From positions 246,894 to 310,893 of the forward strand of contig KQ965778.1 in the NCBI GenBank assembly GCA_001574975.1: a DNA stretch of 64,000 nucleotides, read 5' to 3'. Source of the DNA: Gonapodya prolifera JEL478 (lineage: Eukaryota; Monoblepharomycota; Monoblepharidomycetes; Monoblepharidales; Gonapodyaceae). The notes below the pieces were generated by a model. The model saw nothing but the letters and a program-made list of their open reading frames with translations, did not search any database and was not told where the DNA came from. Shown piece by piece: positions 31,701 to 54,496 of the stretch (the stretch's first letter is position 1; each line of letters starts with the position of its first letter). The translations under genes were made by a program, and so were the position numbers.

Positions 31701-31970
31701 CAAAGGGCGATAGTCGCGCCACCGATGGGATATCGTTGTCGAATTTCAACTTTGAGACTAAGAGGGGAAACTCGCCTTAGAAGCCGTGAGTAGCTGTGTT
31801 GCGAATATACTTTGCTTGATGTCAGCATGAACTTGTGAACGTTCGTTTTCTCCCAGTTGCACTCCAACATTGATGGTCGCACAATATTCCCTGTCATGCC
31901 CGAGGGTCTTGAGGAAGGCTAGAACGCTGATTCCTTCTTTGGAGCCACACACAATGCCTTTGAGGCTCTG
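28785..31970 (+). pseudogene. strawberry-notch (SBNO) helicase-like protein, first part
   Basis: Exons read in SBNO order: VLFSIYTTLIGQAKSP, VEWCG, LLIFDESHKGKN (the DExH-type motif), [156 protein letters not shown] introns separate them. Stops interrupt the frame: two TGA at 31436 and 31445 where the family has Arg, TAA in the PQE-ILVI segment, and TAG before NADSFF. The N-terminal ATP-binding part is absent. The homology ends abruptly at 31970, where Ty3 integrase begins. The missing C-terminal part is on the other strand at 49.1-50.5 kb. Confidence 0.85.
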
Positions 31971-33109
31971 CACCACTCATGTCTGCACCACCACCTACCA
32001 CCCCCAAACCAACACCCTCACAGAATGTTTCAACGCCACCCTCACAACACTCCTTGCTTCCTACATGGACAAGGAACAATGCAACTGGGATCTCCTCCTT
32101 GATGCCCTCACCTTCAGTTACAGCGCCTCCTTCACGCAACCACTTTTGACACCCCCTTCTTCCTTTGTTTTGGATGGGACGCTCATTTCCCCCTGGATCT
32201 TTCACTCACACCTCCTACCTCCAACTCACCCTCACCACTCCCCCCTCTCCACGACTTCACCAAATCCACCAACCTCCACACTCAGATTGTCACCACCCTT
32301 GATTCTGCCTACCAATGTATTTGCTGCAACGTCATTTGCCAACAACTCTACCAGATGACTCTGCATGACCTTTGCCACTGACATGTTTCCTACTCTTTTG
32401 GTCAACATGTATTTGTCTACATTCCCCGCATTGAGCCCAACTCCAACAAAGTCATCAAATTCCTCTGACCTTGGCACTGCCCATTCACCTGCCCCCACCC
32501 ACCACTCCAGCGCCTCTCGTTCACAACGCTCTTATGATGCCCTGGAACCTGCTGGACGCACTCAACCACCTCCCTCACCTCCCCCTTCTGTTAACGCACC
32601 ATTCCCCACCACCATCTTCGCTGTCGCTTGCAACGTGGACTCTATCTTAGGACAGCAGTTTTGTTATGGTAAGCCCTTCTTCAAGGTGTGACACTTTCGC
32701 TGCACCTGCACCTCCTGGCTTCCCCTCAGCAACACAAAATCATGCGACCACTGCTGTTCCCTCCTCACCAAATTTTACACACACAAGCTCTGCCCTCTTT
32801 CAAAGGCCTTTGTGGGCATGCTCCCCACCTTGTCTCATTGCCCATGACCCCCCTTGTGATCACCTTTTGCAACCTCCTCCCACCACCTTCACACTCCGCT
32901 CCCCTTTCCCTTTCTCAGTTGGATCTTTGGACTTTTTGCTCTTTGTTGGACTCTTCTTTGGCCCCCTACTTCATTGGACACTTTGGGAACTTTGGATAGA
33001 ATGGATTTTGTGATGACTCTCTGGGAACTTGGAATCTTTGGAAACTAAAGATGGACTTTTCTGTTTGGGTCCCCCAGTACGTTTTACTCTCCTTCTCACC
33101 TGGGGGTAA
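31971..33109 (+). mobile_element. Ty3-type integrase C-terminal fragment and 3' internal end
   Basis: It opens with THVCTTTYHPQTNTLTECFNA, the end of the DDE integrase core, then WDLLLDALTFSYSAS, and (in another frame near 32430) PRIEPNSNKVIKFL, the small post-integrase barrel. The remainder is Pro/Ser-rich with frame changes. A polypurine tract TGGGGGTAA at 33101-33109 directly precedes the LTR, as expected at a 3' end. Nothing upstream of the integrase core end is present here; the complementary integrase half is at 50485 on the minus strand. Confidence 0.8.
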
Positions 33110-33427
33110 TGTGAGGGGCTTGGGCAAGCTTCATCAACATCGGAAGCATTTGGACTTCACCTGGCATTCGGACTTCCCCCTTGTAAAGAAAAGTGTAAAC
33201 TAGAATCTTGCAATTTATAAACAAATGTAAACTGCCACCAAATAAGTTCTGACATCGATCCTCAAACTTGTCCCGTCTTGCAAATCTCCACATCTCATCT
33301 CTCCGGTCACTTGGCGTGACCTCTCAGCTCTCTTGTCTCTCTCTCATACTCGTCTCTAGCACCCCCCCCCCCCCCCCCCCCGCGTGCCCTTGGTGTCTCC
33401 TAGCAACCCTTGCTGGCCTCCACCACA
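33110..33427 (+). mobile_element. 3' LTR of the Ty3-type element
   Basis: It starts TGTGAGGGGC after the polypurine tract and ends near CCACCACA. It aligns with the LTRs at 51236-51581 and 20868-21223, e.g. the block GTAAACTAGAATC...ATAA..AAATGTAAACTGC and AAATAAGTTCTGAC. The end is less certain because a C20 homopolymer interrupts it. Confidence 0.75.
33362..33381. repeat. C20 homopolymer inside the LTR
   Basis: Twenty consecutive cytosines. The related LTRs have only GCACGCCCC at this position, so it is an expansion or an assembly artefact. Confidence 0.85.
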
Positions 33428-33479
33428 CTTTGGCCACTCAAGGTACTTCCCTGCGTCGTCACGCCATCTGGACTGATAA

Positions 33480-34230
33480 TTAGTCAAAAGCATATACCGC
33501 CACAAAGCCGGGGAGCAGGAAAGCCTCCAGCTCCACAGCCTGCTCGTAGACATTCATGCCGACGAACATGCGGCCAGTCGACCTGATATTGGGTCCCGCC
33601 ACTGACCACAGGTTGATCAAAAGTAGCACCTGGGAGCTGACTGTGTGCTTGAGCACTGGCTCCAGGGAGCTGAAGTGGTCTGACAAGCCGTTTTGAATGC
33701 AAACACAAGTTCCCGGCCAACAGGACGTGGACTGGCCTCCCGCGTGGCATGAGGCGCTCTGTATTGTGAGCGTCGACATGCTTGTTCTCTGCCAAGAGCC
33801 ATGTGGTGGATGCAAAGGAGACCGCAAAGTCTGGGATGTTGTTCGGGGTGTGCTCCAGAAGAAGACTCCAGTATGCCTGCGTGATGGCACCATCTTGCAG
33901 GGCATTGAAGGCAGCCTGCTTGAAGTTCCTGTTAGCGGCATGCTGCTTCTTGATCTGGGTGAGACGCACACCAGTCTCCCAGCAAATGTATTTACGCCCT
34001 TGTGCGCACTCATTCGTCCTCTTCCCTACAGTCAATCATGCTGAGTAGCTTGGCAGACATCAACAAATACTCGTCCACTGACATTAGTTTTCCTTCAATC
34101 CGGTATAGTGTGTGTGCAGTCAAAGTGCAATCCTTAGTTGCAGGTATGTGTGAAGTGGAGTAGGTCCATTCCAAAGCATACCAGCATGTTGTTAAACCAA
34201 GACTTAAGAAAAAGCCAAGCAGCACCATAG
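33480..34230 (-). pseudogene. PIF1-like helicase fragment
   Basis: Minus-strand frames show the order expected for the PIF1 family: a Walker-B-like segment corrupted to SVDEYLLMSAKLLSMID near 34100, then ITQAYWSLLLEHTP, FASTTWLLAENKHVDAHNTERL, and (after a frameshift near 33700) VLLLINLWSVAGPN, STGR and PGFVAVYAFD. Walker A is missing. Such helicases occur as cellular genes and as the helicase half of Helitrons. No Rep domain or Helitron end is visible. It begins about 50 bp beyond the LTR. Confidence 0.7.
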
Positions 34231-34688
34231 TGCTATATGTAGAGTGATTGTGAGGGAAGACTTTGGTGCCTTCAAGCTCTTTATTTGTGAAGAAAGCAGC
34301 AAATCAGCACGTGCATTTGGCAGCACAGCACACCTTGAAAACCCAGAGTTTAGAAAAAGCCAACCAGTCGTGCTTTCTCTCATACAAAGTGAAACCATGT
34401 GCAAATTTTGAACCGTGAAAACCTTTTCTATGTGTTGAAATGATTTGAAGAATGGATGCAGTGGACCTGTGGTGAAGGAGCCGTTACGTAATCATAACCC
34501 AAGCACGTCCTTCCGAGTTCGCAGGGAAAATTGCGACGCAACGTGTATTACGTTACGCAAAGCCGACTGCGTGTTGCAAACTGGTGAAAAAAGGTGCTCA
34601 AATGTGAATTGTGATGGCGAATGTGATGATGAACATAGATCCAAAATTGCAAATTCTACACCCCCGGTAAAACACTGCTTGCTAGATA
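34231..34688. other. intergenic, no gene recognised
   Basis: No motif-bearing frame on either strand between the helicase remnant and the 3' end of the reductase gene. Confidence 0.55.
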
Positions 34689-36218
34689 TTAGACCTTAAT
34701 GCTGTAGGACGGGTATCCAAGGGAGTGCCGGCAAGAGGAACGAGACAAAGTCTGTTTCAGCTTCAGAACGCGGCGCCCCACATCCTCACATCAACCACTC
34801 ACGTTGCCTTCCCAAAGTTCTCTCCCTTAAGCATTCCGCAGAAGTACGCCGCGGCATTGTCGAGCCCTTCGCGCACGTCGTCCTTGACCTTGAGCGACCC
34901 GTCGAGGATCCAGGCCTCAGTCTTTTCGCGGTGCTCCTTGGGGGTGTCCCCCTTGGCGAACTCGACTTGGATAAAGAAGCGCAGGACGGAAAGGTTGTGT
35001 TTGACGCCTGGAGTACGTGGTGCGGATGAGGTTTTATGAATGGGTGATGGGGGGTTGTAGCCAACGACCATTGCAAGATCGGGACGTCTACTCACGGTCG
35101 GCTTCGAATTTCTCGGGTGGGGGGAATGCATTGCTGCTGTTGTACCCAGAGATCCAACCGCACACGGGGATCCGGCCTTGGGGGTTCATCAAAGAGAGCG
35201 CCGCGTCGTAGGTTTCGCCACCAACCTTACAAGAGAAAGGAGTAATTAGGGTTTCAAAAAGACAGATGATATCACAAACAGCGCCACTCACGTTTTCGAA
35301 GTTGATGTCGATGCCCTTGGGGCACGCTTGTTGAAGAGCGGCCTTGATGGAGCCACCAGGAGGCTTCTTGTACTAAACAAGGGAAGGGATAACATCATTC
35401 GTCAGTCGTCACTTCAAGAGTAGGAACACCCCACGCCACCACAACTCACGTTAAATGCTTCATCGAAGCCCAGTTCGTTCTTGAGGAACGCAACCTTATC
35501 GTCACTTCCCGCCGACCCCACAACTCGCAGACCGAGCTTCTTTCCGTATTGACCGACAACCTGTCCGACGGCACCGGACGCCGCCGACACGAAGAGCGTC
35601 TCGCCGGCCTTGGGCTGAGCGAGGATGATGAGCCCACCGTATGCTGTGAATCCGGGCATGCCCAAGACGCTAATGTAGTGGCTGAGCGGGATACCGGGGG
35701 TGGGCGTGAAAACCTTGAGCTGGATGAGGTCTGGGTTGGGAACGACAGAGTATGTTTCCCAGCTGAGGAAGCCCTTGACGGTGTCCCCGACGGCAAAGGC
35801 CGGGTTCGAGGATTTGATGACTGTGCCGATGGCGTAGCCGTTGAATGGCTCGCCGAGCTTGAAGGGAGGAATGTAGCTCTTGGCTTCTTGCCTCATCCGT
35901 CCACGCATATATGGGTCTAAAATAATGATTTCGATTCAATTTCGTAAAGCGGCCCCATCCGAGACTGTCTCTCACCGAGGGAGAGGAAGGTGTTCTGGGT
36001 GACAACGTTTCCCGCGTCGTTTCCGACGGACGCGAGGTCGAAGGGCACATTGACGACCTCGAAGTCGTCTTGAGTTGGCGCGCGCTCCTTGGGCTCTGTC
36101 TTAAAACTAACGATGGCGGTGCGGGAGACGGAGAAGGGAGACGGATTCAGGGACGTTCGGCGACGTTCGGTGGAGTCAAAGTGAACGCTCACATGACGCG
36201 TTTGTTGACGGTGGCCAT
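34689..36218 (-). CDS. NADPH-dependent 2-alkenal/prostaglandin reductase-like MDR protein
   Basis: Seven exons: 36218-36193, 36106-35976, 35916-35451 (boundary within 1-2 nt), about 35372-35292, 35226-35096, 35007-34803, and a last exon of 13 nt coding the end of KATIKV. All junctions have GT-AG and restore frame. The product, about 345 aa, is a zinc-independent medium-chain reductase: LSLDPYMRGRM near residue 70, the Rossmann AASGAVGQVVGQ, the NADP-phosphate-binding GSAGSDDKV, a YKKPPGG segment, FENVGG, GRIPVCGWISGYN, and a C-terminal FGKATIKV. The family reduces the double bond of alpha,beta-unsaturated carbonyls, detoxifying lipid-peroxidation products in the cytosol. It is divergent from the TPR gene (213 bp apart). 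Confidence 0.92.
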
Positions 36219-36430
36219 GTGGATTGGGATGATGGATGGCAGGAAAGTGAGTTTTTTTTAATGATGGTTCGGTGATTACGAAATATTCCAGTGTTCTTTT
36301 GTCGGTTGATCGGGCAGAGTTGCCCGACTGCATCTTAGACTTCATTTGATATGTAATTGGGTACCAATACCTTATATTTTGTACCGCTCCCTCACTAGAT
36401 ACAGGGACACTCTGCATTCAACAGCGAGCG
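36219..36430. promoter_or_regulatory. divergent intergenic region, MDR reductase / TPR gene
   Basis: 212 bp between two start codons on opposite strands must hold the 5' elements of both genes. No specific site is assigned. Confidence 0.4.
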
Positions 36431-39400
36431 ATGGGCAGCAAGAAGAAGCGATGGTGAGAACTCGACACGCAGCTGGCGGGAACGGTCGGTCACGTGCTCA
36501 CGAGAACCGTCCGTTGCGTAACATCAACGCAGGGAGATGGAAAGTCTGTCGCAGCGGGTGCACTCCGTCATCGGCGTGGGGCTGGGACAACTCGGAAATG
36601 TGGAACTTGGCGGCGAGGGGGGCAGGTGAGTCGTGAATGTTTGCCAAATGTGCGTTGAAACGTCGGTGATCACCATTGAATCCTCGACTGCTCGACCCGG
36701 CCGATGCTGACGAAACCAGTGCAAAAGCAGCCCCCTCAGCAGGCGTGAACGTGACAGCAGCGTCGCCATTGAGAACCATGACGCAATCCGGGCTCCGAAC
36801 CACAACGGCGCCATCGCATCTTCACCAACACCCCGACAGTCGCCCGCTTCCCGCACCTCCACGAGTCACAGCCATCCCACACACACCACATACCCCGCAC
36901 TCCCACGCACACCGCGCCCGGTCTCTGCTGTCATCGGCGGAGTCGCACAACAAACACCGCGCGCTGCCGCCACTCTCCCCCTTCTCACCCAACTCCGGTT
37001 CCATCCCGCAGTCTCCTCCCACGCCGGACACGCGTCTTCTAGCGCGCTCTACCACCGTCCTCGGTCCTCTTTCCGTCACGGGCTCCGCGCTTCCTCTCCC
37101 ACATACCTCCCCGCCGTCAGTCCTCGAGCCTCCAAACTCTCCCGCATCTTCAAGAGCACTTTCCCCTCTCCTCTCGCTCGCCCACCTGCCCTCATCTCTC
37201 TGCTCGCCGTCGCCATCAATCATCGACATCTCCATCCCGAGTATACCGGTCGGTTCACTCCCTTTCCCCCTCCCACGCAATGCTCTCGCCCCTGGCCCAA
37301 CCGCCGCCGCCCTTCCCTATACCTCCCCCGGCGCAGCTCCCGACCCCACACTCCCATCGATCACGGGCCCCATCCTCGCAGCCACTGCTCCGCCCATCCG
37401 CCGACAATCACTTGCCGCATCGCTGTCTTTGTCCTCACGCCGGGCATCCTTCTCAGCCTCCATACCGCAGCCCCCACCTCCGCTTCCGGTGCCCTCACCT
37501 GCACTTCCACTGTCGCCACTTGCGGAAATGGCGGCGCGTTTGGGTATGAAGATGCTGTCGGAGTACCTTGAGAACCCCGACCTGGTTCTTTCCTCCTCGA
37601 GTGGGGGCTCGGGCAATCTCACCGACGGGGAGGGCTCCAGCTTTGCCACTGGTGACTCCGACGCCACGTCCCTGTGCGAAAGAGGTACTATGCCAGCCCT
37701 CGACGAGTCCAACCCCGACTCCTCGCTCGACTTCACATCCCCCTCAGACGTGGACGCTTTGATTCAAAAGTACGCGGCGGCGCTGCGGGAAAGGGAGGAG
37801 CAACAGCGCAAGCAGGAAGAAGACGATAGGATTCGGGAGACCGAGGCGGCTGCCGCTATTCACGAGCCTCGTAAAGGCCAGGTCGATGAAGTCGAGGCGA
37901 GCAGAAGCGGGGCAGAAGGGGGGAGCGACGGAAAAGTCCCCAATACAGAGGTGGCGGATGGCTTCGTAGAGCCATTACTTGCGATAGACACACACCTGGA
38001 CCCCGACCCTTCCGAAAAGGGCGATGGACACGTTGTGCAGGACGCTGCGGGAAATGACGTGCCGCCGCCATCCCCGCTTACGGCTGTTGCTGTTGCCCCG
38101 GCTGACGATGTGAATGGGACCGCTGGGGAGAAATCCCACCGTGTCTTGGAAAACCCGTTGCCACTGGTGTGGGTCGCAGCATCACCACCACCTGTTACCG
38201 CTCCTTCACCACCTCTACCCGAGCCCGCCCCCACGTGCATCCAACCATCACCCGCCGCCTCAACCCGCTCGCCCACACACCACCCACCCCGCCCTGCACC
38301 GCCTAAACCTCGCCCTCCGCCGCCGGAACGACCACGCGCGTGGCCGGGTCTTGTGGATGGCGGGGCGCCTGCTGTGCCTGAAAGAGCAGGCGCAGGACAA
38401 GGACAGGGAGTGGCGAAAGGCGTCGGAGTGGATTTGCGCCCTAGGCGGGAGGTCGGTGGTCCGAGGAAGGGTGGACGTATGAAGACGGGAGGAGACGACA
38501 AGAGTGCCGATGCGTTTGTCCCATCCGAGCGGGGCAATGGGAGGAGCGCTGCGCCCCCAGACCCGCCAGTAAGATCTTGGATGGACCTTGCGACTCAAGC
38601 ACCTTCAGACGTGCCGTCGAGCTTGACCGGATTGACTGAAGACGTCACAAAAACTGTCAGCGGGTTTGTTGCTGCCGTGAGTGCCCATTAAATTTCCTCT
38701 CTTTATCCACACCGTTCTTACACCGTCCACGCCACATCCCTGCTTGTCAGCTCACAGCACGCCAACTAGACCCAGTCGCGCCCTTGCCTGCCGATTGGGG
38801 CTCGCCCGTGGCATTGAAGGCGCTCGCGAGGGAGTTGGGTAAATCGCACGATCAGGCGGACCGGAAGACGTTGGGAGTCTATGCGGGCCGAGAAAAGGGG
38901 AAAGGGAAGGCGGTGGTGGTGCTGAAAGTGGCGGAGGAGGACGAGGACGAGGACGAGGATGAGGATGGGTGGGAAAGTGACAATGGGAGTGGTAGTGAGA
39001 GTGAGGAAGATATCGAGGATGTGGGAGGGAAGACGGATGTACCGAAGGCGTCGGATCACGTAACTTCAACGCAAGCCACCCCTGCGACGTCACAAATCAA
39101 TGAAACTGCTCCGGTACAAAACACGACTGCGGCACAAGAAGTCCCCGCGCAAACGTCGGAGCACACACGAGACGTCGAACCAACACACCCAGTGACATTG
39201 CTGGAAAAGGTTCATGATGTACAAGAGCGAGCGCGATGGTTTAGTCAGGAAGAGAAAGAAAAGTACCCCACGGTACGTGCGACATTCGAACAGTTGTACC
39301 TGTGTTTCTTCAAAGCTCAATGAAGCGATGACCCATGCCCAGCTGAACGATCCAACACCCGCACCTGTCGACGAAGTGTCCCTCGGCACCTTAGAATCCC

Positions 39401-42400
39401 GCCTTACTGTGCTGAACGCAATCGTAGAGGAGCAGTCTTGGGGGAAGCTCGACGTGGGAGTGGTGAGGGAGCGTGGGCAGTTACTGATTCGAAAGCGGGG
39501 TGAAGGGGATCTTGAGCGCGCCGTGGGAGATTTGGATGGTGCAGTGGGGAAAGGTGGGTCAAACGGGGTTGAGGGGAAGTTTGATACTCGAGCTTTTCAA
39601 TTGGGGACTTCTTGAACGGTAGATCCATCCCACATTCCGACATACTGGCTACTGCACCAACTGCATCTACTGCTGAACGACGCCCGCACAGCGCTCAGCA
39701 TTCTCGAAGCCATCATGGAACGGACTAAGACGCACTTGGGGGCCGCGTGGGCCAAGGCTCGGCTGGCGGGGCACATCGGGGATCGAAAGAAGGCTTTGCA
39801 AGGATGGTCTGCTGTTGTACGGATGCGCCCCGAAACGGTGGATGGGTACCTCGAACGGGCCAAAGTTTTGGAAGCTGACGGAGACGTCGTGCGAGCTCAC
39901 GAGGATTGGCTCATGGTCTACACGCTCGATCCGGGCAATGTTGCTGCTGTGGAGCATCTCGCCATGTGGAATTTCGAGAGGGAAATGTGGCAGGACGCGG
40001 CAGTGATGTTGGGGAGAGTCGCCAAGTTGAAGCCAGGGGACAGCGAAGTATGGGCGCGGAGGAGTTGGGCTTACTCGATGGTGGAAAGATGGGAAGATGC
40101 CGTCGAGGTGTGTTCGTACTACTCGAGCGCGATGCGAGGGTTTGCGTTCACATTCTTTCCTGTTGAAAGGACATCACCACTGCCATAAAGCTTGCTCCCA
40201 ACACAGCCTCTCACTGGTTTCACCGAGGGTGTCTTCTTCGCCGCACAGACCCTCGCCGCGCTTGCGATGACCTCAGCATATCTATCCTTCTGGACGATGG
40301 GGCCGAGAACGCGATGGCGTGGTTTTACAGAGGGTGGTGCTATGCGGCGAGAGGCGCAGAGTGGGTGGAGGTAGCATTGAGGGATTTCGAGGAAGGTGGG
40401 TGACTTTAGCGTGGTGTTTGCGGATCACTGTGTTGTTTAATGGAGACATTCTGTAGTCATAAGACTCGTTCCCGAACGTCCCGCTGCTTACATCAATCTG
40501 GCGATACTTCACTCGCATCCTTCGCTTCAAAATCACGAAAGAGCGTTGGGCTACCTGGACCGCGCGATCACTCTGGATCCAACAGATACGAGGAGCTATG
40601 TGTTGCGAGCCGAAACGTACTATGCAATGCACGAGTCGGAGCTGGACGAGGAGAGAGGAAAAAGGAAAGATAGGAAGGACGGTGTAAAAGCCAAAATGGG
40701 AAGGAAGGCGGGAGATGTGGGAACGATATTGGTGGAGAGGGCGGTTCGAGATTATACAAGGGCGATTCATCTGGATCCCAAGAACTACATGCTGTATTTG
40801 TATCGGGGTAGAGTTCTGTTGACTCGTATTAGGTGAGTGGGGATTCGTTTTGGATGTTTTCTACGCCGAAGCATACACTATTCGCGGCCGTGCGCAGCTC
40901 GCAGAGATTGGCTACAAATGACTTTGAAACGGCGTTTCACCTGAATGCCGGATTTGAATCTCAAACTCCCATGCAGGTAAGTCGCGCTTTTCTTTTCGTA
41001 CACAAGGGTTCAAATGGACTTCATGATATGGAAACGATGTCCATGGCAACTGCCGACGTTTTCTAGCGCGGGCTCATACTCGCTTTTCAACGCAAATGGT
41101 GGGAGCTTGTGCAAGATTTTGATCTCAGGGATGCCGCTAGGCCTACAAAGGATGTTGATTTGTTGTTGTTGTTGTCGAGGGCTAAGCAGAAGTTGGGAGA
41201 CTATCAGGGTGAGGGCGAATCGACGATAATCGTCTAGCTTCATTTAGATTTATGTTCTGTTTCCCCAGGATCTCTCACATTGCTGGAGAGGGCGGTGCAG
41301 CTTCGTAATGAGATATCAATTGAGCTGGAGCGGGGACGTTGCTTGATGAAGGTCAACCGGATCAACGATGCAGACGTGGCACTTTCAAAATGCTTAGTAA
41401 AAGGGCCACTGCTAGCACGAGTGAGAATTAAAACAGCCTTTGGTGAATCTGGTGCTCTCAGCTAACATTATTCAAAGGCACACTTCGATCGTTATACCTG
41501 CAGAATGGCAGGTGGCAGAAAGGCAGAAGCATTTCGAGATCTCGCAATTGCACTACAACTTGAGCCTTCCTTCTTTGATGCACTGCTTGCGAGGGCCAAG
41601 TTGTATTTGGAGCAAGGTGCGAATATTCTCCCTCTTAAACACAAAGAAAAGCGCGAGCATGTAATGTTCGTGCCTGCTTCTTAATGAATTCTGGCTGGAT
41701 CTGCGTGTGAAGGGGTGTTTTGGAAAGGAATTGAGGACTGCGACGAAGCGGTCAAGGTTGAACCTCGCAGTGGATCTGCGTAAGTAGATCTGCGGAGGAT
41801 GGCAATATGGCGATTTCAAGCTCATCTTAACATTTACCCATACCGCAGATACTTTCTTCGAGGTGATACTTTATCATTCTCCCGATTTTGCTACCTTGAC
41901 CTAACCTACGTGAACCGTCACAGGCGTCCTCAAGTTCATGTCAAAGCAATGGCAAGCAGCGGCTTTTGATTTCACCAAAGTAATCCACTTAAGTCCAGAG
42001 GTGAGAATGGTGCCATTGTTTTGATTAAAAGATTGAAAGTGTCTAATCGGTATCGCCGGGTACCAGAGTCCAACTATGGCGATTCTCAATCGAGCTGTTT
42101 GCTACACGAGAATGAAGGACACGAAGAAGGCGATTGAGGACTTTTCTGCCGCTCTGTTAAACAGAGACGATGCTGTGAGTCTGCTTGGTTTGTGCATGCA
42201 ATGGGAGACACCTTGCACATTCAATTGACACACTTATCGCGATTCCAGATCGCATATCGACAGCGAGGATTGCTTTACTGGAAAATTGGTGACGCCGCCA
42301 ACGCAGTACTGGATCTGACTGCAGCGCGCGACAATTTCCCAGAGGATGGAGAAATGCGAGGCCTCTTGGGGCTCTGCTTTCAGCGTCAAGGTCGTCTCGA

Positions 42401-43505
42401 AGAAGCTTTGCAGGAGTTCAGTGCCGTAAGTCGTTGCGGTGCATTCAAAAGAAGTTAACCTGTGACCATAGTTGTTTCCTTCCATAGGCTGTACAGCTAG
42501 AAACCTTGCGTCCAAAGGCTGTCCTATTCTGTAGTCGGGGGAATGCTTTTAGGGCTAGAAATACGCCTGGCGATAGAGAACAGGCGAAGTGAGTCCGCCT
42601 TTGTCGAAATGCAAGCTGATCAGTGTGTGATAACTCCGAAACACTCAAGGCGTGACTACGCACGGGCCCTTCATGTTCGTCCGTTGGATCCATTGACATA
42701 CGTCTGTCTTGGACAACTTTTTCAGCAAGAAGGAAGCGTAGACAAGGTATTGTCATCGGCAGTGGTGGTCGTATCCGTTGTAATGCGATATTTATTGGGA
42801 TGCCTTTTCACTTCTGTGTTGACAGGCGAGGAGAATGTTCACAATCGCGATCGGGCTTGACCCAAATTGCTCTGCAGCATTTGAAGGCCGAGCAGCAATT
42901 AGCTTTGAGTCGAAGAACTACCACGCGGCGTTTCTGGATGTGGGCAAAGCACTGGTTAGTTGCTGTCACGTCGAATTGGGTTTTGCGCTTTCCCAGCAGG
43001 CCGACCGATGCGATTTTAGGAGGTGAACCCACACTCTGCCGACCTCCACAATACAAATGGGATTCTTTGCCAGGCTTTGGGAGATCTGTCATCTGCGCTG
43101 AAGGAGTTCAAGGTTTGTCGCTCAGTTTTGAACCCTCATCTCATTCTCAATCAACTTAATTAACGTTCCAGGTCGCGATAAAAAAAGACCCCTCGTACCA
43201 CCTAGGGTACTTCAATGTGGGTATAGTCTATTTGAAGCAACGGTTCTTCGACAAAGCGTTAGAGAACTTTGACAAGGTGAATGCCACATCTTGGACACAA
43301 TTCCCGTTCTAATTTCTTGCACCTAATGCAGGCTGTTGTGCTGAAACCGGACGACGTCAAGCTTTATGGTAACAGGGGACTCACAAAGCTGTTCCTGGGT
43401 GACAAGGAAGGCGCCAACGACGATTTTCGTCGGGTTCTCCAGTCAATCCCCACCCATAACTTATCCAAGGCGGGCATAAAAATGATCAGTCGATTGGAAA
43501 ACTAG
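36431..43505 (+). CDS. large TPR-repeat protein, about 23 exons
   Basis: Reading GT-AG junctions from MGSKKKRWEMESLSQRV (exons 36431-36453, 36533-36625) into the 2-kb exon 36720-38676 and on gives about 1,850 aa with an unbroken frame. The first third is Pro/Ser/Ala-rich and disordered, with a Lys/Glu-rich segment near 37.8 kb and an acidic EDEDED stretch at 38.94 kb. From about 39.6 kb to the end there are many tetratricopeptide repeats, for example YLERAKVLEADGD, WFYRGWCYAARG, LDRAITLDPTD, YTRAIHLDPKN, RAVCYTRMKDTKKAIEDF, ALENFDKAVVLKPDD. Introns are 43-100 bp; one exon (41849-41862) is only 14 nt. TPR arrays bind protein partners; length and layout resemble TTC6-type ciliary proteins, which is only a guess. 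It is intact although it lies inside the inferred inversion. Confidence 0.87.
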
Positions 43506-43803
43506 CACGCGATGCAGGGATTTTGTAAATACTTTTCCCAGACGGTCTTCGACGACAATTAGCGCTATTATGTGACGCATTCCTACTAGTAACTCCGTCA
43601 CCGCTAGTTACAATTGTCAGAGCCCCCGATTGCGTTCGTGTGGACAGTAATGTTTAGGCTAAGATCCAAAGGACATTGGTCTCGTGGATTCTTGTACAGC
43701 AACAATTTTCCTTGAACATGTATGACTTTTTGTTTGTGTTTGACAGAACAAGACTGCATTCAGAATACATTCGGTTCACTATGTGTATACTCCTTGTATT
43801 TAT

Positions 43804-45189
43804 CTACTTGTCCCGACACGTACTCGTCCCTTTGCCTGTCTGCGCGCATATCCCGTTTTTTTCATGCATACCGTCGACGCCACGTCCCCGTGGCCCCAAA
43901 CCGTACGCCTTCCCCCTTTCACAGTCATGATGGTCAATGCACATTGAGCAGAGGAGCCGCCCACAAGTCCCGATCTCGCCCTCACAGGTCGCAACACAGG
44001 ATTCACAGACTTTCCGCCCACAGTTGGGGCCGGGGTCGAAGCTTGATCCACACCGCTTACAACCCCAACTATCACCGCAAGATTGGCACATACCCTCCTG
44101 AAAGAAATCTGCGCACAAATGCTACAGGAGCATTCAGATGGATGATCTGCACAAAAAACGCCAATCCCGCCACATCCTCCACACTTTTCATGATCGCTGC
44201 AGGCAGGGCAAAGCTCAATAGCACAGTTGGGCCTGGAGCATACTGTCCACCCAGCAGACCGACGACACGATTCGCAAGATTGGGTGCGCACGTGTTCGAG
44301 AATGCCGCACGTCAGATAGAAGGTCGGCTCTTCCTCGTCTCTTTTCACCCCGCACCGAACACAGGTGTCCCACTGACTGCAAAACACACATAGCCCGTTT
44401 GCGCTCCATGAGTGAGCTGGATCCTCGCCGCACGCAGAGCAGATGGCAGGGTAGAATGCCACCGGAAGGTCTTTGAACAGGGTATGGTAACTTGCGAGTT
44501 CATTTGAAAAGCCCATGTGGTCCACTCTGCCCCACGCAAGACGGTCCAAAAAACTGCTTGGCCTCAGTGGCCCCGCGGCGGATGCCCGGACGATCTCTTC
44601 TTTTTCCAAAAAGTCCAATAGTCTTAACTTTCCTCCAGTGGTCCATTGTTGGGATTGCTCAAACTTGAGAGCTTCAGTGATATCCATTCCCGACTCCAAG
44701 CACCCCACAAAACGAGCTTCGCGTATGGAAGTGAAGGTGTTTAAGATGTGAAGAATGATTTGGTGCATCCACGAAGAGGTCGCGACTCGCATCACCGTTC
44801 AGGGTGACTGTTGTCACGCTGGAAACAAATGCTGCTGCATCACCGGAAAATACCGTCCACCGAGGTAGTACCGTTGTGCGTTTGATGGCTGCTTTATATT
44901 CAGTCGATGATTTGCACGCGTTTTCGAGGCAAAGGTGATGTTCGGTCCATGTTTGAAGCTGGCCAACAGTGGCACGGGCACTGTGGCATGTCAGGCTCAC
45001 ATTAAGGAGCGAATCTGTCGCAAGAAAGGAGAAAACGACGTGGATGATTTCGTTGGGAAGGTCGAGGAGGTGAAGAGCGCCGCTCCCAGCAACGGAAGTT
45101 GATTCCAAAGTCATGGAAAGTTGGTCGTGGATGCGAGTGGAGCCAAGGGGAAAAGGAGGAGGGGAAAATCGGAATCGGGGGGATGCCAT
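43804..45189 (-). pseudogene. F-box/cysteine-rich protein, type I (copy J, two frameshifts)
   Basis: A start at 45189 or 45114 leads to LDLPNEIIHVVFSFLATDSLLNVSLTC. A single-base shift near 44775 (after GDASRDLF) is needed to reach IILHILNTFTSIREARFVG. The tail follows: CSAC, HSWSANGLCVFC, CVRCG, CESC, GWTVC, ELCPAC, CGGCG, CADH, CSCS. A second one-base shift near 44115 leads to CADFF..CQSCG, CKRCG, CESC and CSMC, ending at 43804. The SDL-type middle LRR is weak (LRLLDF). It may be a live gene with two sequencing errors, or a young pseudogene. Confidence 0.77.
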
Positions 45190-45322
45190 CCGTCAACGTC
45201 CGCAGCACGTCAGAACCTTTTCATTTTCGATTTACTCAGCTTCGATTGAAGACGTCTTGGAATCTCCTCTGGCTCCACCTTAACCGCAACCTTGCTCTGT
45301 GATTCCTGTGATTTTTCCAACC

Positions 45323-46481
45323 ATGCAGCGACGTTGCGGACCTTGCGGCGCTGCTTTCTCCACACCGGAATTGATTCAACTGGTATTCCGCTTTCTACCA
45401 CCAAAAGACATCACTTCGTGTGCGCGTGTTTGGGACGTTCTCTTTTCTTCCGGTTCGGCAACTGTCGCCTCCCGTGGTGCAACGTTGTGAATATTCTCTC
45501 ACTTCAAACTCCAGCAAATCGTGGTATCCAATCGCTCTCGGCTCTTTGTGGAAAACGTGGACGATTAGCGGTGAAGCGCGCAGCAATCTACGGCTATACG
45601 CCTTCCGCTCGTTCGACCCTGGCAAGGTGGACCAGCTGATACATCCAAAACAAAATATATAGGATGGATGGGCTCGAGGAAGAACCACCAGATGAAAAAG
45701 GCCCCGCCGTTATTGAGGCCTTGTTTTTGGTGAAGCGGCACGTTCGTCAGATGGACATTAGAGTCACTATCCGATTCTTTCTTCTCTGCGTGGGCATCAA
45801 TGGCATTTGACCAAGCTAAGAACATCACCATATCGAAAATGAACAATTTCACACCACTGCATCTCCTTGGCTAACACAGCTTCTAAAAAGAAGCACATCT
45901 TTGAGTCTACTATGGGTGAAACTTTTGGGCTATACCAAATGGTCGCTCCCTTTGGAGTGCAAGCGCACTTTGAAGCAACTGACATTGAAGCCGTCAAGTT
46001 GTATCAAGCTGACAACTTTTCCAAACTTTCGGAGATCCAAAATCTTCGCTTCCTCTGTTGCCAGGGCGAACTTGAGGAGGTTGAATGCATCCAGAATCTT
46101 CCTCATAAGCTGAAGGTTCCATACATGACCACCCCTCAGAAGCTACAAACATTGCTGAGGAATGTTGGAACGGACTTGGTGTCACAAGATATGACAATGA
46201 CTTTATGCACTTCCAAATTCAGCCAGATTTTGCTCGAGCAATAGCCGAGAACTGTCCACAGTTGAAGCACTTGAGGCTCGATGAGATTGACGCAGTGGAT
46301 TTAAGGGTTGCGATTTACCTGGCCGCAACTCTTCCCGATCTCGCAATACTTGAATTTTGGAGCCATCCTTGCGTGTGGGGAACAGAAGTTTATCCAAACA
46401 TGTTAGGCAAACTTAAATTCGACGCACTTGTGAAGAGTCGCAGCGAGCCGCTACGTGTCTGTTTTGAGTGGTCAGCGCAGG
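45323..46481 (+). pseudogene. F-box/LRR-type protein, first tandem copy (dead)
   Basis: The F-box starts MQRRCGPCG..FSTPELIQLVFRFLPPKDITSCARV and should continue after an intron as CKSWYPIALGSLWKTW, as in the second copy. The donor GT is GG here (45433), so the intron cannot be spliced normally. Further stops and shifts occur after PKQNI (45662) and near 45860. Leucine-rich segments remain readable (LSEIQNLRFL, NCPQLKHLRLDEID, LAATLPDLAILEFW). The type is the common fungal F-box followed by irregular LRRs and is not related to the cysteine-rich family. Confidence 0.75.
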
Positions 46482-46570
46482 TTCGATTGAAGACGCAGTC
46501 GAAGCGTCTCTGCCTTCGCTCTGAGGAGTGCGACATTTGCCTCTGCTCTTCCACGGATATTTCTCAAACC

Positions 46571-47794
46571 ATGCAGCGGCAATCGAGACCCTGGGATGAG
46601 ACGTTTTCTGTTCCTAAGCAGCTGCAACTCGTAATCGGCTCTCTACCGCCACCAGATATCGCTTCGTGCGCGCTCGTTTGGTAAGATTTCGGGTTCACTT
46701 TGAGTAGCTACAGCGGCCCAGGTTCTATTGACGCAACGAGCTTATTTTCGACTTTCGTTATGACTCCAGCAAAGCTTGGTATCCTGTTGCTCTCAGTTCT
46801 TTGTGGAAAACGTGGAGGATAAGCAGTTTTGGTCGCAGCAATCAACAACTTGATATCTTTCGCTCATTCAACCCATTGAAGGTTGAACAGCTCATACATC
46901 CAAAGCACATTACGTTGGCATATCTCGAGGATGATTCATCAGAAGACAAATTTCTCATCATCATGGAAGCGCTGCTTTCAGTGAAACGTCCTGTTTGCAG
47001 TTGGACATTGTATTCGGTGTCAAACGGAATCTTCATGCTGTGGGCGTCGGTGGTACTTGTGTTTACCTCTGTCTCACCTTGGCTCACGCAGTTTCTAAAA
47101 AGGTGCATATCGCTGAACCGGCTTACGTACTACTTGGTTACGAAGAAGATAACGAGTCGTACAAGTGGGCACTCCCTCTCGAGCGCAAGAAGATTTTGAA
47201 GCGACCAGCGCTCGAGCCTAACGTGGCTGTGAACTTTTCAAAGCTTTTCGAATTTCAAAATCTCGTCGCCATAAGTTTTCATTGAGATTTCGACAGGTGC
47301 AACACATCCAGACTCTAGTGAACCTTCGTGAGCTCGAGGTCCCCCGTTCAATGTACTCTCAGCGCCTTTACATAATGCTCAACAATGTTGGGACGCAGCT
47401 TCTCTCGTTTGGCGTATTAAGTGATGCAAGTGATGAATTCAGACTTCCTCCTGCAGAAATTGGATCAGCTGAGAACTGTCCAAACTTGAGGAGCTTGAGC
47501 CTTGCTGGGTTTGCAATGTCGGTGGAACTGAACGTTTTGATTTACTTTGCAGCAGCTCTTCCTCATCTTGCAATATTTCAATTATGGAAGGAAAGCAGCC
47601 TGTGGGGAACCGACATTTACCCAGACATGGTGGGGAAGCTTGCATTTGATGCCATTGTGAGGGGACGCAAGGAACGATTACGTATATATTTCAAGTGGTC
47701 TTCCGATGGACCTTATGGACAAGCTACCGATTTGGACACGTTGACTGTTAAGACACATGCTGGATGCACTCCAATTGGTTTTTTTTGGGAGTGA
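46571..47794 (+). pseudogene. F-box/LRR-type protein, second tandem copy (two frameshifts)
   Basis: Exon 1 (46571-46680) plus exon 2 from 46770 gives a typical F-box: LQLVIGSLPPPDIASCALVCKAWYPVALSSLWKTW; the intron has GT-AG ends. Comparison with the first copy indicates one missing base near 46996 and another frame change near 47283. Between and after them the LRR-like region is open (SKLFEFQNLV, NCPNLRSLSLAGF, AAALPHLAIFQLW) until 47794. Better preserved than the first copy; it could be functional if the two shifts are base-calling errors. Confidence 0.7.
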
Positions 47795-47992
47795 TCGCGT
47801 AGCGGTCAATGAAGGAGAGCTATGTGACTTTTGTAACTCTGAAAAATGCACGTTTAACATTTGAAGCGACGTCATAATTGCATCTGCGTGATTTCACATC
47901 GAACTTGTGAAGAAAAACAAAATGAAATTTTCTTTCTTCCCCCTTACAATATGGAGAGTTCACTTTGGTACATTTCTACCAGCCTGGACTAC

Positions 47993-48601
47993 CTATTCTG
48001 ATACGTAGTGGGAGGAAAGCCTTGATGAGTGTTCGATCATCTGGCGAAAACAACCAATAAAGTACGAACCGCTTCTCCGCCTTCTCCAGTGACTCATGCT
48101 CATCGAATCAGTCAGCTTCTCCGCCGACACAAGCTCAAACTCAAGCGTCTTAATGACCTCCCCAAACAGCCGCCTTCCTGCCCCGAGCAATCGGCCAACC
48201 ACATTGATGTACATCTCGTCGACCAGGTCCGCCCGTAAAAAGTCTTGAATGAGCACGCCTCCGTCCAAATAAATGGACTCAAATCCCTTCTTCTCCAGGT
48301 TGTCCAAAATTGAATTCGGGGAGCCCTTCACTATTTCAATTCCAATGGTCTTGTAGTTCAAGTTTTCAGGAGGACCCGTAATCGACCTGCTCGCGACAAA
48401 CACAGGTTTGTCGTACGGCCATTTGTCAAATTCTGAAACGGTATTAAATGTTTCTCGTCCCATTAAGAGACAGTCCACTTTCGACCAGAACTCCTTGTAG
48501 GGAGTTTCTGGGCAAGGAAGTGATGTCAGCCAGTCGATTGAGCCATCACGGGTAGCAATGAAGCCATCAAGTGATGTTGCGATGAATACGTGCACCTTCA
48601 T
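47993..48601 (-). CDS. dihydrofolate-reductase-like / RibD C-terminal domain protein
   Basis: Intronless, 202 aa. It has the RibD-C/DHFR fold signature of the bacterial YyaP/YwjB type: MKVHVFIATSLDGFIA at the start, SIDWL, LLMGRETF near residue 48, SRSI, IYLDGGVLIQDFL, YINVVGRLLGAGRRLF. Such proteins bind NADPH and resemble DHFR, but most have no proven substrate. The last 40 residues, Arg/Ser-rich, do not match the family end, so a late frameshift or altered 3' end is possible. It has no introns while most neighbours do, and relatives are mainly bacterial, so lateral acquisition is possible. Confidence 0.85.
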   Translation of the reverse strand: MKVHVFIATSLDGFIATRDGSIDWLTSLPCPETPYKEFWSKVDCLLMGRETFNTVSEFDKWPYDKPVFVASRSITGPPENLNYKTIGIEIVKGSPNSILDNLEKKGFESIYLDGGVLIQDFLRADLVDEMYINVVGRLLGAGRRLFGEVIKTLEFELVSAEKLTDSMSMSHWRRRRSGSYFIGCFRQMIEHSSRLSSHYVSE

Positions 48602-48661
48602 CGGTGTGCGAGAGAGAGACAGAGAGTTTGTGTGGAAGATCCTCAGTTTCGCCGGAGGCTA

Positions 48662-48964
48662 CTATTTTTGGAAACATGGCATGGCCCCATCCCACCAGTC
48701 TTGAAGCCACATCAAACCAAGGTTGCGAGACTCGATTGACTGCAAGCCAATTAATGCACCTCGTTCACCGTCACCGATAATCGTACGTAAGATACAGATC
48801 TCCAAAAAAAGATTCTCTTTTACCACTCTGCCGTGCAATGCCCTCATAAAAATGCCTCTCGGTGTGTCAAAAGGGGTGAATTCTATCTCGCACCGTCGAT
48901 CTAGATCTCTGAAAGCATGGTCGTGTGCATCTAAAATTTGAAATGGGTGAATTAAGACGCACAT
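48662..48964 (-). CDS. hypothetical 100-aa protein
   Basis: An open frame with an even, soluble composition (IEFTPFDTPRGIFMRALHG, GERGALIGLQSIESRNLG). The pattern faintly resembles beta-trefoil/AbfB repeats, which is too weak to name. It may be an exon of a longer gene. It lies upstream of the DHFR-like gene on the same strand. Confidence 0.35.
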   Translation of the reverse strand: MCVLIHPFQILDAHDHAFRDLDRRCEIEFTPFDTPRGIFMRALHGRVVKENLFLEICILRTIIGDGERGALIGLQSIESRNLGLMWLQDWWDGAMPCFQK

Positions 48965-49113
48965 GACACCAAGTCGCTACAGTAGAACAGTCGAAGGGGT
49001 ATCAGTCAATTGTAATTTTATTCATTCATTAATTTTATGTTCGTATCTAAATCACAAAGTGTTTGAATGTATACGTGCGGGCAAACTTCAGACAGTGTGC
49101 AGATGAATATTCT

Positions 49114-50484
49114 TCAGTCGCTACCACCGGTCATTTGCGCCTTCGCCAACGCCGCGAGAACGTGGCTGTCAAATTTCACTGGGATCAGAATACCTCAATT
49201 CCGGGATGTGCACCATCAAGATCTCGACGGTAAGTCGGTTTGACGCAGAGGAATCACATACCGATAATGCGTCGGTCCATCACCGTAACTGTAGCTCGGA
49301 CAATCTTAATCCGCTCGGTGCATCCCGCTTGTAGGAGAGCGTCCTCCACCTTCGTCCACACTATCAGAAGGGTCATGTTCAGAGACAGATCCCGGAGTAG
49401 ATGTTAATTGAACTGAATTCACCTGGAACGACTGCGCCGGCAAGGATATGGTACTCTCGAACCCGCTTACCGACCGTGCAGCCAAGCCTGGCGGCAGCGT
49501 TCTTGCATCGTCCGTTGAGGGACATCATCGCGTGGGTGCACAGTGTAACGCTAGAAAGACATCATCATGACGTTAATAAGAGTATCAAGCGGTATGCACG
49601 TTCAATGCGTCCTCACCGAGATTCGTACTGTCGATCCCTGTTCAAAAGAGTGGATGCGTCTTATGGTTCAGAAAGTCTTATATCATGATGAGCCATAGGT
49701 GCAGGTCGTACCCACCAGAGCTTCTTCACGTTTGTTGCTACCTGAGCGTCTGGGACCCTCGCGTGGCCTCGCAACAAGTCGCTCCAATAGTTCAAGGACA
49801 AAACCTCGCCCAAATGGGGCCTACAGTGATGCGAGATAACATCAGATATATCATTCTGCGAGGGATGAGGTTTACCACGTACTAAAAGACCCGGGCGCAG
49901 ACCCCAGTCTTCCCTGAGTCACGCGCCAGCAGCACTGATTCCCCACTCTTTGAAATGTACCACCCATTCCGTGGATGGTCGTTCTTCCACTCCTCGTGAA
50001 AATTGGTGGCATCCTCGGAGGTCAATCCTCGATCAACTTTGAGTGCCCAGTGTTGTGTTTTGATCTTGGAGAAAGCATCTTAGAATACGAGGGCGGGTTC
50101 TTTCTCAAGCTTGACGGTACAAAGAGAGCCACCGACGTCCGCTGTAGGCAAAACTGTGAATACAATGGCCGGGGTGGTAAGAAGTGGAACCGCAACTCAC
50201 CGATACCAGAATCGAAGTGACCGTCATGGCGAGCTTCATCCAGAACGATCTGAAGAAATAGGAGCCAAGAATACACGACGGAAATAGCACTATTCAAGAA
50301 TAAAGCTACCTTTAAATGGCGAAGGAAGTAATCAAAAATCTTGTTTTGAAGCGTCACAGGTGGATTCCAAGCAAGCTGTTGATAAACAAGTTAGGCCTTC
50401 TCGCAAGAGCTTGGAGGCGTTGAGACAAGGGACGTACCGATTGAGGAACTTCTTGACTTTCGTATCATGGGTTCCAATGTCGGC
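49114..50484 (-). pseudogene. strawberry-notch (SBNO) helicase-like protein, C-terminal part
   Basis: Reading down the minus strand from 50484: ADIGTHDTKVKKFLNR, then (intron) LLGI, TLQNKIFDYFLRHLK, (intron) VLDEARHDGHFDSGI, LALKVDRGLTSEDATNF, GWYISKSG, CTHAMMSLNGRCKNAA, GCTVGKRVREYHILAGAV, VWTKVEDALLQAGC, RIIG and the end GGSD. This is the helicase-C/C-terminal order of SBNO proteins. A one-base shift in LLGI/HP and a TAA in the FSKI exon show it is not intact. It abuts Ty3 integrase at 50485. Joined in thought to 28785-31970 it continues the same protein (NAFEAL + ADIGTHDTK). Confidence 0.85.
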
Positions 50485-52540
50485 CAAGTGTTGAAGGCGG
50501 AGGCAATATGTGAGGTAAGTCAATGCAGAAGGTTGGCACCTTGGTTGCTGGGGTGCACCAGACTGGAAGATGACGTGGTGGAGGAGCCAGCGTGCAATAG
50601 AGGTAGAGCAAGCATTGGGAAGAGCTCTGGTCCACGCCCACTTGTCGCCATCGTCCATAACAACAACAATATACTTGTTGCCCTGGCAAGAGTGCCAAAA
50701 AGGTCCCAGGATATCAGTTCCAAGAGTGTGGCTGGGAGATGCTATGTCCTTTGGCATGAGAAGTCCAGGTGGCTGATGTGGAGGCAACTTGTGAGAATGG
50801 CAGGTGTGGCAGTTGGGAACCCAAGTACGAACATCACTAGCCATGTGCAGCCACCAGAAGCAGTGCCGCGCGGCTTCAAAAGTACAGTTGCGTCCAAAGT
50901 GAGTGCTACCAGTGAGTTTGTTCTGGAGAGCACATAGGATATCTGGAGAAATGGATCATGGAACGGCAAGGCACTCAATCTTGGTGGTGGAGTAACATTG
51001 CTTGGTTCAATTGAGACATTGAGAGATGCAAATGACTGGTTTGAGCTTGGAGTTGTCAGGGTGTTTCTGGAGGAGGATATTAGCAATACCAGTGAAGGAA
51101 GCATCAGTCTCAACAATGGTGGGGAGAGCAGGATCAAACTAAGTCTGTTCCACAGCATTGATGAGGGCCTGTTTGATGTTTTTGTAGGCTTTTTGGTGCT
51201 CAGAAGTCCAGGAGTCGGGGTTCCATTTGCCGGGTGTGTCAGGGGGAATGGGCGAGGGTGGCTGAGTGAGGCCGTGAGCACGCCGGGGCGTGCGAGAGAC
51301 GAGTACGAGAGTGAACCAAGAGAGGGAGAGCCAAGAGGTTGCGCCAAGTGACCAGAGAGACAAGCGAGACGAGGGGGAAAAGATGAGCAAGCGAGAGTGA
51401 GGATCGAAGTCAGAACTTATTTTGTAGCAGTTTACATTCATTTATGAATCGCCAGATTCTAGTTTATGCTAAGAGGATGAAGTCCAACTGCTGGGTGAAG
51501 TCCAAAAGCTTCCGGATTTGATGAATGGTGCCAAAGGTTGGCCACAGCAACTTGTGAGGGAGCTCGCCCAAGCCCCTTGCAGGTGCGTGCTTGAGGTCTT
51601 TGAGTGAGGCAATGATAGTGGAGAAGCCAGGGATAAACAACAAGTGGAATGAAATAACGCCAATGAAGATGGAGAGGTTGTCACATGTGGTTGGAGGAGG
51701 GGCGTTCAAGATTGCCTTGATCTTTGCTGGGTCGGGTTGGGTACCAGTTGGGGTGACGAGACGGCCAAGGTAAGGTAGAGATGGTGCACAGAAGGTGCAT
51801 TTCAAAGGCTTGAGAGCAAGGTTATAGTTGCAGATTTGTTGGTGAGCAAGGGCAAGGTGATTGAGGTGGTCATCAAAGGTGCAGGAGAAAATGATGATGT
51901 CGTCCAGATAGACCAGTGCACACCACCGCTTGAGTCCAGACAAAAGAAGGTCCATATTGCACTGGAAGGTGGAGGGTGTGTTGGTGAAACCGAAGGGAAG
52001 GAACAACCACTCAAAGTGGCCGTGGGCAGTGGTGAAAACAAGTCAGTGGCACTCGGCAGGGTCCAGACAGATGTTCCAGAATCCCCACATGAGATTGAGG
52101 GAGGTGATCCACAAGTATCCGCAAAGAGTGTCCAATGTGTCGGCGATGCGGGGCAGTGGTCCAGAATGGCACACTTGTTGAGTTTGCGATAGTCAACTGC
52201 AAAATGCTAACTTCCAACCTTCTTTGGAGCCATGAGGACCAGCGCCGAGTACAGAGAAAAGGACGGAGCAAGTGGGTTGTTGCTTGTGTACTTGTCCATG
52301 TGCTCTTTCATGAGGTCATTCTCAGCAGCGGAGTGGTGGTAGCGGCGACCAACAATTGGGTCAGTGGTGTCAAAGGGGGACGCGTGCAGGGGGGAAGCGA
52401 GACTGGCCAAGATCCACTGTGGTAGCAGTGAAACAGTCGCAGTGGTGGAGGAGGAGAGCGGTGAGACAGTGGAATTGGTCTCGTCCCAGATCAGAGAAAC
52501 GTTCAGCAGGGCAATGCAAAGTCGGAACAACATGCTGATC
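50485..52540 (-). mobile_element. Ty3-type pol fragment: RT, RNase H, N-terminal half of integrase
   Basis: On the minus strand: RYHH..ENDLMKEHMDKY and LMAPKK (start of RT, about 52.3 kb), FGFTNTPSTFQ, LVYLDDIIIFS (the YxDD catalytic box), YLGRLVTPTG, the tether DSWTSEHQKAYKNIKQAL, RNase H ETDASF, the integrase zinc finger (HFGRN..HCFWW..CHTC), GTDILGPFW, and a NQGAN where the catalytic second Asp is Asn. Frame changes occur in RNase H and integrase. A solo LTR interrupts the tether (51236-51581). Gag, protease and LTR ends are absent. It stops at 50485 precisely where the SBNO remnant starts. Confidence 0.85.
51236..51581 (-). mobile_element. solo LTR nested in the Ty3 pol
   Basis: 346 bp, starting TGCAAGGGGCTTGGGC and ending CCTGACA on the minus strand, with CACC on both sides. 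Removing it restores the pol frame KHAP/GKWNPDSW, so it inserted into an already resident element and then lost its interior by LTR recombination. Confidence 0.8.
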
Positions 52541-53138
52541 TGGAAGAAAAACCCCAGGAAGAGTCAAATGCCAAACTTACAGTCACTGAGTCCGTTGACC
52601 AAGCCCAAACCTTTTGACAAAAGCACTCCCACTGGAAATTGCAAACGCCTTGTGAACAGTTAACAGAGAGTTCTTTGGGGAACATACAGACGCCTCCAAA
52701 AGAGGTTGCAAAACCTCCCTTGAGCGATTTACTGACGTCTGGAAAAGAAGTTCCAAAGGCCGGTGTCTCTACTATGGTCAGTGATGGTCGCTTATTGTTT
52801 GTACTTCGAAACTCACAACTGGCCGGAGTTCGATATTTTGTTATTTACTTGGCGCTCTGCATGAACAACCACTGCGTCCGTCAGATCAATAGTCTTTACA
52901 TTGGTTCGCGCCGCCTTTTTAAGGGTAGATGGCAGGATCACTGCCTGAGAGTATTTTGAGCGAGATCGAATCCCAGCGAACCAAGTGTCTGCAAATCACA
53001 AGTGGGTGACTTGTTTGAACCAAGGCAGAAAGCAAAGTTGAACGGTGGTCATTTTGTTGAAAGTTGCCAAACTTTGGGCAACGGTAGTGATTAAATTGGT
53101 CCTCTTCAAGGCTATCAAAATATTTCAACATCAAAAGA
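52541..53138. other. unassigned stretch between Ty3 pol and kinase remnant
   Basis: Plus frames contain a Ser/Pro-rich stretch (52639-52800) that might be the lost N-terminus of the kinase. No motif is recognised and no splice joint is convincing. Confidence 0.35.
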
Positions 53139-54225
53139 ATGCTCGGATATGGTGGGAACGGGGTAGTCTTGGGTTGCAAGAGAAATGTCAACGGCGTATC
53201 GGTCGCTGTAAAGTTTCTGGTTTCGTCAAGGAGCGCGAACTCGGAACAATCGATTATGCAGCAAATCTCACACCCATCAATCTGCCATCTTCTTGACTCA
53301 TGGGAAGAATTCGGTTTCATATGAATTTTGGTCATGGAGGCAGTCGGAAAAGTTTGGATTTCTGGGACGAAGGGGATGACTGCCAGAAACAATAACGGAC
53401 AAATAGATTATTGCTAGTTGGAGGGTGCAAACAAAATCTCGCTGTTCGAATGTAAGGATCGTTGGTGTTGCAGTAACTGCATGTGAATTTCAACTGTCAT
53501 TTCCGACTCTAGTTTGCAAGGCAAAGATCGAACGAAACGAGTTACTTAGTGATGACACTATCGCAGCGATATTTCATCGAGTCGCGTCCGCAGTTGGGTA
53601 CCTTCATCCGCGCGAATCTTTCACCTGGATTTAAAGGCAGAGAACGGTGAGTCATGAAAGGCCCCATCCCATTGATTACATTACAATTGAACATACAATT
53701 ACCACTACAATCAGTCCTTATTGACAAAAATATGATTGCAAAGGTCATCGACTTTGGCCATGCACGACAAACAGACCCTCACAAACCAACGTCGCGCAAC
53801 GCTTCGACGTATGGAACCACTTACCTGAGCCCGCCGAGGATGACTACTGCCTTCTTTCGCACTCCTGATGGCGTCCCTGTTCTGCGGCAATCAGGATTTT
53901 GGGCGGATGTGTGGGCGCTTGGTTTGATCCTACGCCAGTTGATCCGTGGACAGCTCCCACCAAGCCACGACAACGATATGGAGCGCATATGGCTCGCCCC
54001 TCCTTGAACCCCGGGTACATGGAGCGCTGACACGTCCAAAGGCAAAAGAGGTGAGCGAACTTCGTCAATGGCATGAAGTTTTTCATTATTAAAGCCCCCC
54101 TTCATGCCAGGCCGTCTCATAGACTTTACGAAAAAAATTCTTACTGTTGATGCAAACAAGCGCATCACCACGACAGAAGTTTTTGCCCACGACGCCCTCA
54201 AAATCCCTAATTATTTAACTTATCT
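53139..54225 (+). pseudogene. serine/threonine protein kinase, broken
   Basis: Kinase subdomains in order: glycine loop GYGGNGVV, VAVKFL (catalytic Lys), SEQSIMQQISHPSI, ILVMEA hinge, DDTIAAIFHRVASAVGYLH, HLDLKAEN catalytic loop, VLIDKNMIAKVIDFGHA (DFG), GTTYLSPP, WADVWALGLILRQLIRG and TVDANKRITTTEVFAHDALK. The frame shifts by one base between GYLHPRE and FHLDLKAEN (about 53610), and the hinge exon runs into a stop at 53385. The APE motif is replaced by SPP. Introns flank the catalytic loop. Substrate and family branch are unknown. Confidence 0.7.
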
Positions 54226-54496
54226 GCAAATCAAATCATCTCTTTGTTGCAAATATAAACCTTTTTGTGCTTAAACGATATTCGAATGGGTGTTGGTTTC
54301 GTTGATTCGTCTCGGAAACGTGATCCGATGACGTCACCAAACTACAAAGGGTGCAGATTCCAAGATCAAAATTGCACGTTCCTCATTTGTTTGTATCAAA
54401 ATATAAGAGTGCATGGGCCCAATGTACCTCAAACATAGTATGTATTATGATAATCACAACTTGTACATTGTCGTTACCCAATAGTGGGAGTGGTCA

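Follow-up and report, generated by a model that had tools for sequence, protein, structure and literature searches.

A segment of about 18.5 kb, positions 31971-50484 of the window, lies inverted in one of two related copies of a region of this genome, and this well-supported inversion is a real and neatly recorded event of a common kind. The window, as the term is used here, is the whole stretch of 64,000 nucleotides that was analysed; it is the terminal part of contig C48 (C48:246894-310893) in a 47.6-Mb draft assembly that comprises 207 contigs and contains N runs, and the comparison was made inside that one assembly. The other arrangement is carried by contig C85, of which position 29001 to the end was used for the window-wide alignment. 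The left block, window 27501-31970, aligns with C85:189617-196853 in the same orientation, and window 16.7k-31970 as a whole is collinear, with gaps, with C85:180089-196853. The inverted block aligns in reverse and with gaps, from window 50488 down to 34234 against C85:196856-207020, and the right flank, window 52478-64000, returns to the plus orientation and is collinear with C85:209629-219515. Since the C85 gene at the inversion point is unbroken, the interior is opposite and the outer flanks are collinear, window 31971-50484 is best regarded as a derived inversion, much as a sequence-only reading of this DNA had proposed.

That reading placed the joints at 31970/31971, where a gene for an SBNO-type helicase passes into a Ty3 integrase, and at 50484/50485, where the reverse occurs, and both were found at those bases. 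At the first joint, window 31800-31970 corresponds to C85:196681-196853 (plus strand, 92%) and the C85 matches end at 31970, with matches to other Ty3 copies starting at 31977 (L008) and 31981 (L009) by BLAST and, for L016 in a local alignment, at 31971. At the second joint, window 50300-50488 corresponds to C85:196856-197045 (minus strand, 93%), where the match stops, and a short run of bases, up to 50488, is compatible with either side. The host half-sites of the two joints adjoin in C85, window 31970 falling at 196853 and window 50488 at 196856. Here C85 has 2, 4 or 6 additional bases, the number varying with the assignment of the shared joint bases. The bases shared at each joint are few, and no long repeat is present at both. 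It is not plausible that unique matches approaching from either side would end at one place by chance.

When the segment is turned back, the SBNO sequence becomes continuous, its two pieces being neighbours in C85, and the integrase becomes nearly so, the pieces ranging from an overlap of 3 bases to a gap of 7 in all four of the other copies (L008, L009, L015 and L016) against which the Ty3 pieces were separately aligned. The earlier proposal that four half-genes make two wholes stands as far as the fit of the pieces is concerned, but the Ty3 element is truncated and the SBNO gene is decayed and without its 5' part. Ty3 is missing at the matching place in C85, and its pieces are neighbours in other genomic copies; this absence leaves the second joint without a direct uninverted equivalent at its own locus, so that it rests on those other copies. 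The same arrangement accompanied by whole genes elsewhere was looked for and not seen, the sole other SBNO gene found being the uninverted one of C85.

The SBNO (strawberry notch) helicase family is defined by the combination of AAA_34 and Helicase_C_4 domains. Both are present in the C85 copy (Pfam; AAA_34 E 2.5e-23, Helicase_C_4 E 7.4e-29), which can be assigned to the family on that basis, whereas the window copy yields fragments only. Helicase_C_4 was found on C48 and C85 and on no other contig, and the SBNO sequence searched against its own genome had no match except the C85 copy. The left (5') piece of the window gene, at 28685-31970 on the plus strand, matches C85:193515-196853 at 88.6% and is decayed: its AAA_34 signal at 28828-29097 is weak (E 0.0016, below the cut-off), Helicase_C_4 appears in pieces at C48:278163-278670, one of them with two TGA codons, and over seven exon stretches picked by eye on C85 the window sequence has five stops in 327 codons and eight indels, none of them a multiple of three. 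Between window 28493 and 28685 about 2.7 kb are absent, comprising most of C85:190589-193515 and including a 631-aa open frame that had no Pfam match and is taken for the putative front of the helicase gene. One of the helicase matches of C85 (196544-197035) reads through seven stop codons, taken for putative introns; the C85 gene thus continues without a break over the inversion point but is at most putatively intact. In the 8 papers listed of the 427 that a literature search gave, 'strawberry notch' did not occur, which is no proof of absence.

The order of reverse transcriptase, RNase H and integrase separates Ty3 from Ty1/copia elements. In L009, a related copy, Pfam places reverse transcriptase, RNase H, Integrase_H2C2 and rve in the Ty3-type order, with the break falling immediately after the rve match. 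In the window's own Ty3 sequence RVT_1 alone reached a Pfam match (51464-52006, E 1.8e-13), and neither of the window's two joint-crossing ORFs had one. The 3' piece, running from the integrase end to LTR-like sequence, occupies 31971-33366 on the plus strand (83% and 74% to the C78 copy L008), and the 5' piece, from reverse transcriptase to integrase, occupies 50485-52478 on the minus strand, in blocks of 75-95% to L008 and L009. Within the latter lies an LTR-like insert (51237-51581, minus strand; 85% to L008 6061-6391) that is out of order with its neighbours. The element is cut at 52478, and it seems to be without its front, because in L009 an LTR-like match (2419-2578) precedes by about 3.3 kb the point, 5905, that matches the cut.

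At window 52478, corresponding to C85:209629, the Ty3 fragment abuts the middle of a C85 open frame, and C85-like sequence begins there. That frame (209121-209876), which had no Pfam match, spans the place where the window enters Ty3, so that the front of the frame was apparently lost from the window. In place of the Ty3 pieces and window 33367-34233, C85 carries 2.6 kb (207020-209629) that matches the window to no substantial extent and the Ty3 loci L008 and L009 not at all; window 33367-34233 is likewise without a match in C85:207000-209700 and has only weak matches elsewhere in the genome. In L009 (C86:170000-179900) a Ty3-type stretch occurs twice, 7,390 bases apart; the 2,511 bases compared are 100% identical, and the pair represents either a recent duplicate or an assembly repeat.

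The inverted host segment proper (34234-50484, minus strand) stands in opposite order in C85:196856-207020, with main blocks of 77-89% and an aligned share of 0.57. A Pfam scan of 18 of its 29 listed ORFs (130 aa or more) identified an MDR-type reductase sequence at 35417-35935 (ADH_N_2 E 9.1e-21, ADH_zinc_N E 3.9e-05), an F-box protein ORF at 44677-45192 (PF00646, E 1.1e-07) and a RibD_C-type reductase ORF at 47996-48658 (PF01872, E 7.6e-17), all on the minus strand, and no match in the 671-aa ORF at 36676-38691. Two intact genes, for an MDR reductase and a TPR protein, had been described as carried along with the inversion; the MDR-type domains are indeed there, but an intact pair was not confirmed, and the 18 ORFs scanned, of 29 in the interior, yielded no TPR domain. 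A TPR_27 match to an 89-aa C85 ORF (E 0.0039, under the cut-off) is taken as chance, since this ORF is simply the frame of the helicase. In the window the RibD_C frame is open; at C85:198600-199300 it is broken into two overlapping frames with one stop and indels, possibly an opposite loss or an intron.

The account that very probably covers these observations is that two breaks occurred on the C48 haplotype about 18.5 kb apart, one hitting the SBNO helicase gene, the other a truncated Ty3-type element within its integrase, and that the broken ends were rejoined crosswise by end joining, which would have turned the intervening segment round; C85 would represent the other, uninverted haplotype or copy. 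The direction of change would be from the C85 to the C48 arrangement, because the C85 gene runs on across the break. End joining is likelier than recombination between repeats, because few bases are shared and one joint lies in a gene whose only other copy is that of C85.

A separate question is whether C48 and C85 are alleles. The evidence leans towards alternative haplotypes: the two contigs end at the same point, with the last 142 bases identical and no third contig matching the last 2 kb, SBNO was found on these two contigs only, and C48 resembles C85, at sampled places, from about 85k to its end. It is possible, though less likely, that C85 is instead a diverged duplicate (a segmental duplication, an extra chromosome or a hybrid copy), in which case the inversion would be real but would have occurred on one paralogue. 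This would agree with a silent-site difference between the contigs of 0.05-0.52 by ORF, which is high for alleles, and with the MCM matches, which fall on nine contigs with one evident pair (C134/C149) and leave seven of the nine without an evident partner. From the latter it would follow that most of the genome was probably assembled once, with some part seemingly assembled twice. M3 peptidase occurs on five contigs (C39, C55, C86, C103 and C107), again with one evident pair, C55/C107, whose matches at C107:135690-137159 and C55:237759-239607 have a near-identical layout and are perhaps allelic. The MCM and M3 pairs look doubled much as C48 and C85 do, which speaks for haplotypes.

Divergence between the contigs was compared inside and outside the inversion. 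Mean identity in 250-base bins is 83.4% inside the inversion (37 bins) and 90.1% and 90.7% in the near flanks (27.2-31.97k, 17 bins; 52.5-64k, 38 bins), the rank test of the interior against the two flanks giving a p of 5e-9, a value limited, like the one below, by the mutual dependence of neighbouring bins. Bins with fewer than 150 aligned bases and other-orientation matches were excluded, as were, by hand, three secondary matches (starting at 44899, 45310 and 47467). Pooled silent-site difference is 0.43 inside (three ORFs) versus 0.18 outside (five ORFs), several of these ORFs being unproven as genes. The inversion as a recombination block is suggestive only, as the stretch at 16.5-27k, outside the inversion, is equally diverged (83.7%, 14 bins; p 0.92 against the interior). 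Moreover, the divergence step is not exactly at the joint, because the first 500 bases inside the break, which belong to the remaining SBNO sequence, are still 91-92%. It is a doubtful proposition that C48 and C85 are long-separated haplotypes of a low-recombination region in a mostly once-assembled genome, with the inversion as one of several rearrangements and holding its interior apart.

The scaffold order of C85 itself is not beyond doubt, since this contig contains an N run of 10,106 bases (169853-179958) and is reversed relative to C48 to the left of that run. The reversal was seen at all three sampled places, with identities of 77-83% (C48:85042-86238 with C85 at about 164.0-165.2k, C48:136034-140329 with about 99.7-104k, and C48:242894-244928 with about 31.0-29.0k), and it reflects either another inversion, of far greater size, or the wrong orientation of a scaffold piece at the gap. 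A small block, C85:99069-99605, matches C48:159009-159549 in opposite orientation at 90% identity, some 19 kb off its neighbour's match, and is a further rearrangement. Window 9000-16000 has no C85 match; its counterpart may be hidden in the N run of C85, or the stretch may be peculiar to C48. Conversely, C85:1-5000, which includes 480 N, matches neither the window nor C48:242894-246893.

In a draft of 207 contigs with N runs one might suspect that the joints are assembly chimeras. This is quite unlikely, as the window contains just one N (at 16019) and the two joints are reciprocal, lie at matching bases and share few of them, unlike a repeat-driven misjoin. Neither such a misjoin nor homologous recombination would have a substrate here, because there is no long repeat at the joints. 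Recombination between inverted Ty3 or LTR repeats is less likely still: an inverted LTR-like pair, 72% alike, does exist at 33119-33367 and 51285-51536, but one joint lies in SBNO, which has no other copy but that of C85, the other lies in the integrase, and few bases are shared. As a recombination site this particular pair is ruled out, the joints being elsewhere. That C85 is the derived form, turned back from an ancestral C48, is scarcely credible, for although the arrangement by itself gives no direction, this would need a chance restoration of SBNO over the break, and the stronger helicase matches are on C85.

A connection of the region with mating type was also considered. The M3 peptidase family includes MIP, a neighbour of HD genes, and no M3 peptidase was found on C48 or C85. 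The STE3 profile had no match in the genome and none in the controls either, so that this negative carries no weight, and no mating gene was found among 20 chosen C85 ORFs (from 52 hydrophobic and 64 large ones listed).

Crosswise end joining has counterparts elsewhere. A paper on Drosophila (PMC6861252) sets out two classes of inversion origin, including an end-joining or cut-and-paste class in which, as proposed here, two non-homologous breaks are rejoined crosswise; the present case differs in concerning a fungus and in that breaks in a retrotransposon and a gene record the event in the sequence. Among mushrooms, two reports describe 36 inversions over 1,655,412 bp between the two nuclei of Agrocybe chaxingu (PMC11433599) and inversions of 493 and 446 kb between two compatible strains of Phlebopus portentosus (PMC12411881). 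These are alike in being inversions between homologous regions of two haplotypes, seen there in whole-chromosome assemblies and here at one locus of a draft genome, base by base. The matA inversions of Flammulina velutipes, as PMC3140503 presents them, are similar in that the order seen in relatives reappears when the modelled segments are turned back, but they involve two 70-kb segments at a mating locus, whereas no mating gene was found here, in what is a weak test.

As such papers report many inversions between mushroom nuclei, the event is an ordinary one. With both arrangements in one assembly, no outside reference is needed to read its direction, its joints and its cost, a broken helicase copy. 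Should the two contigs be alleles, a single helicase copy would be left to serve the strain, and it could be tested whether the inversion acts as a local recombination block.
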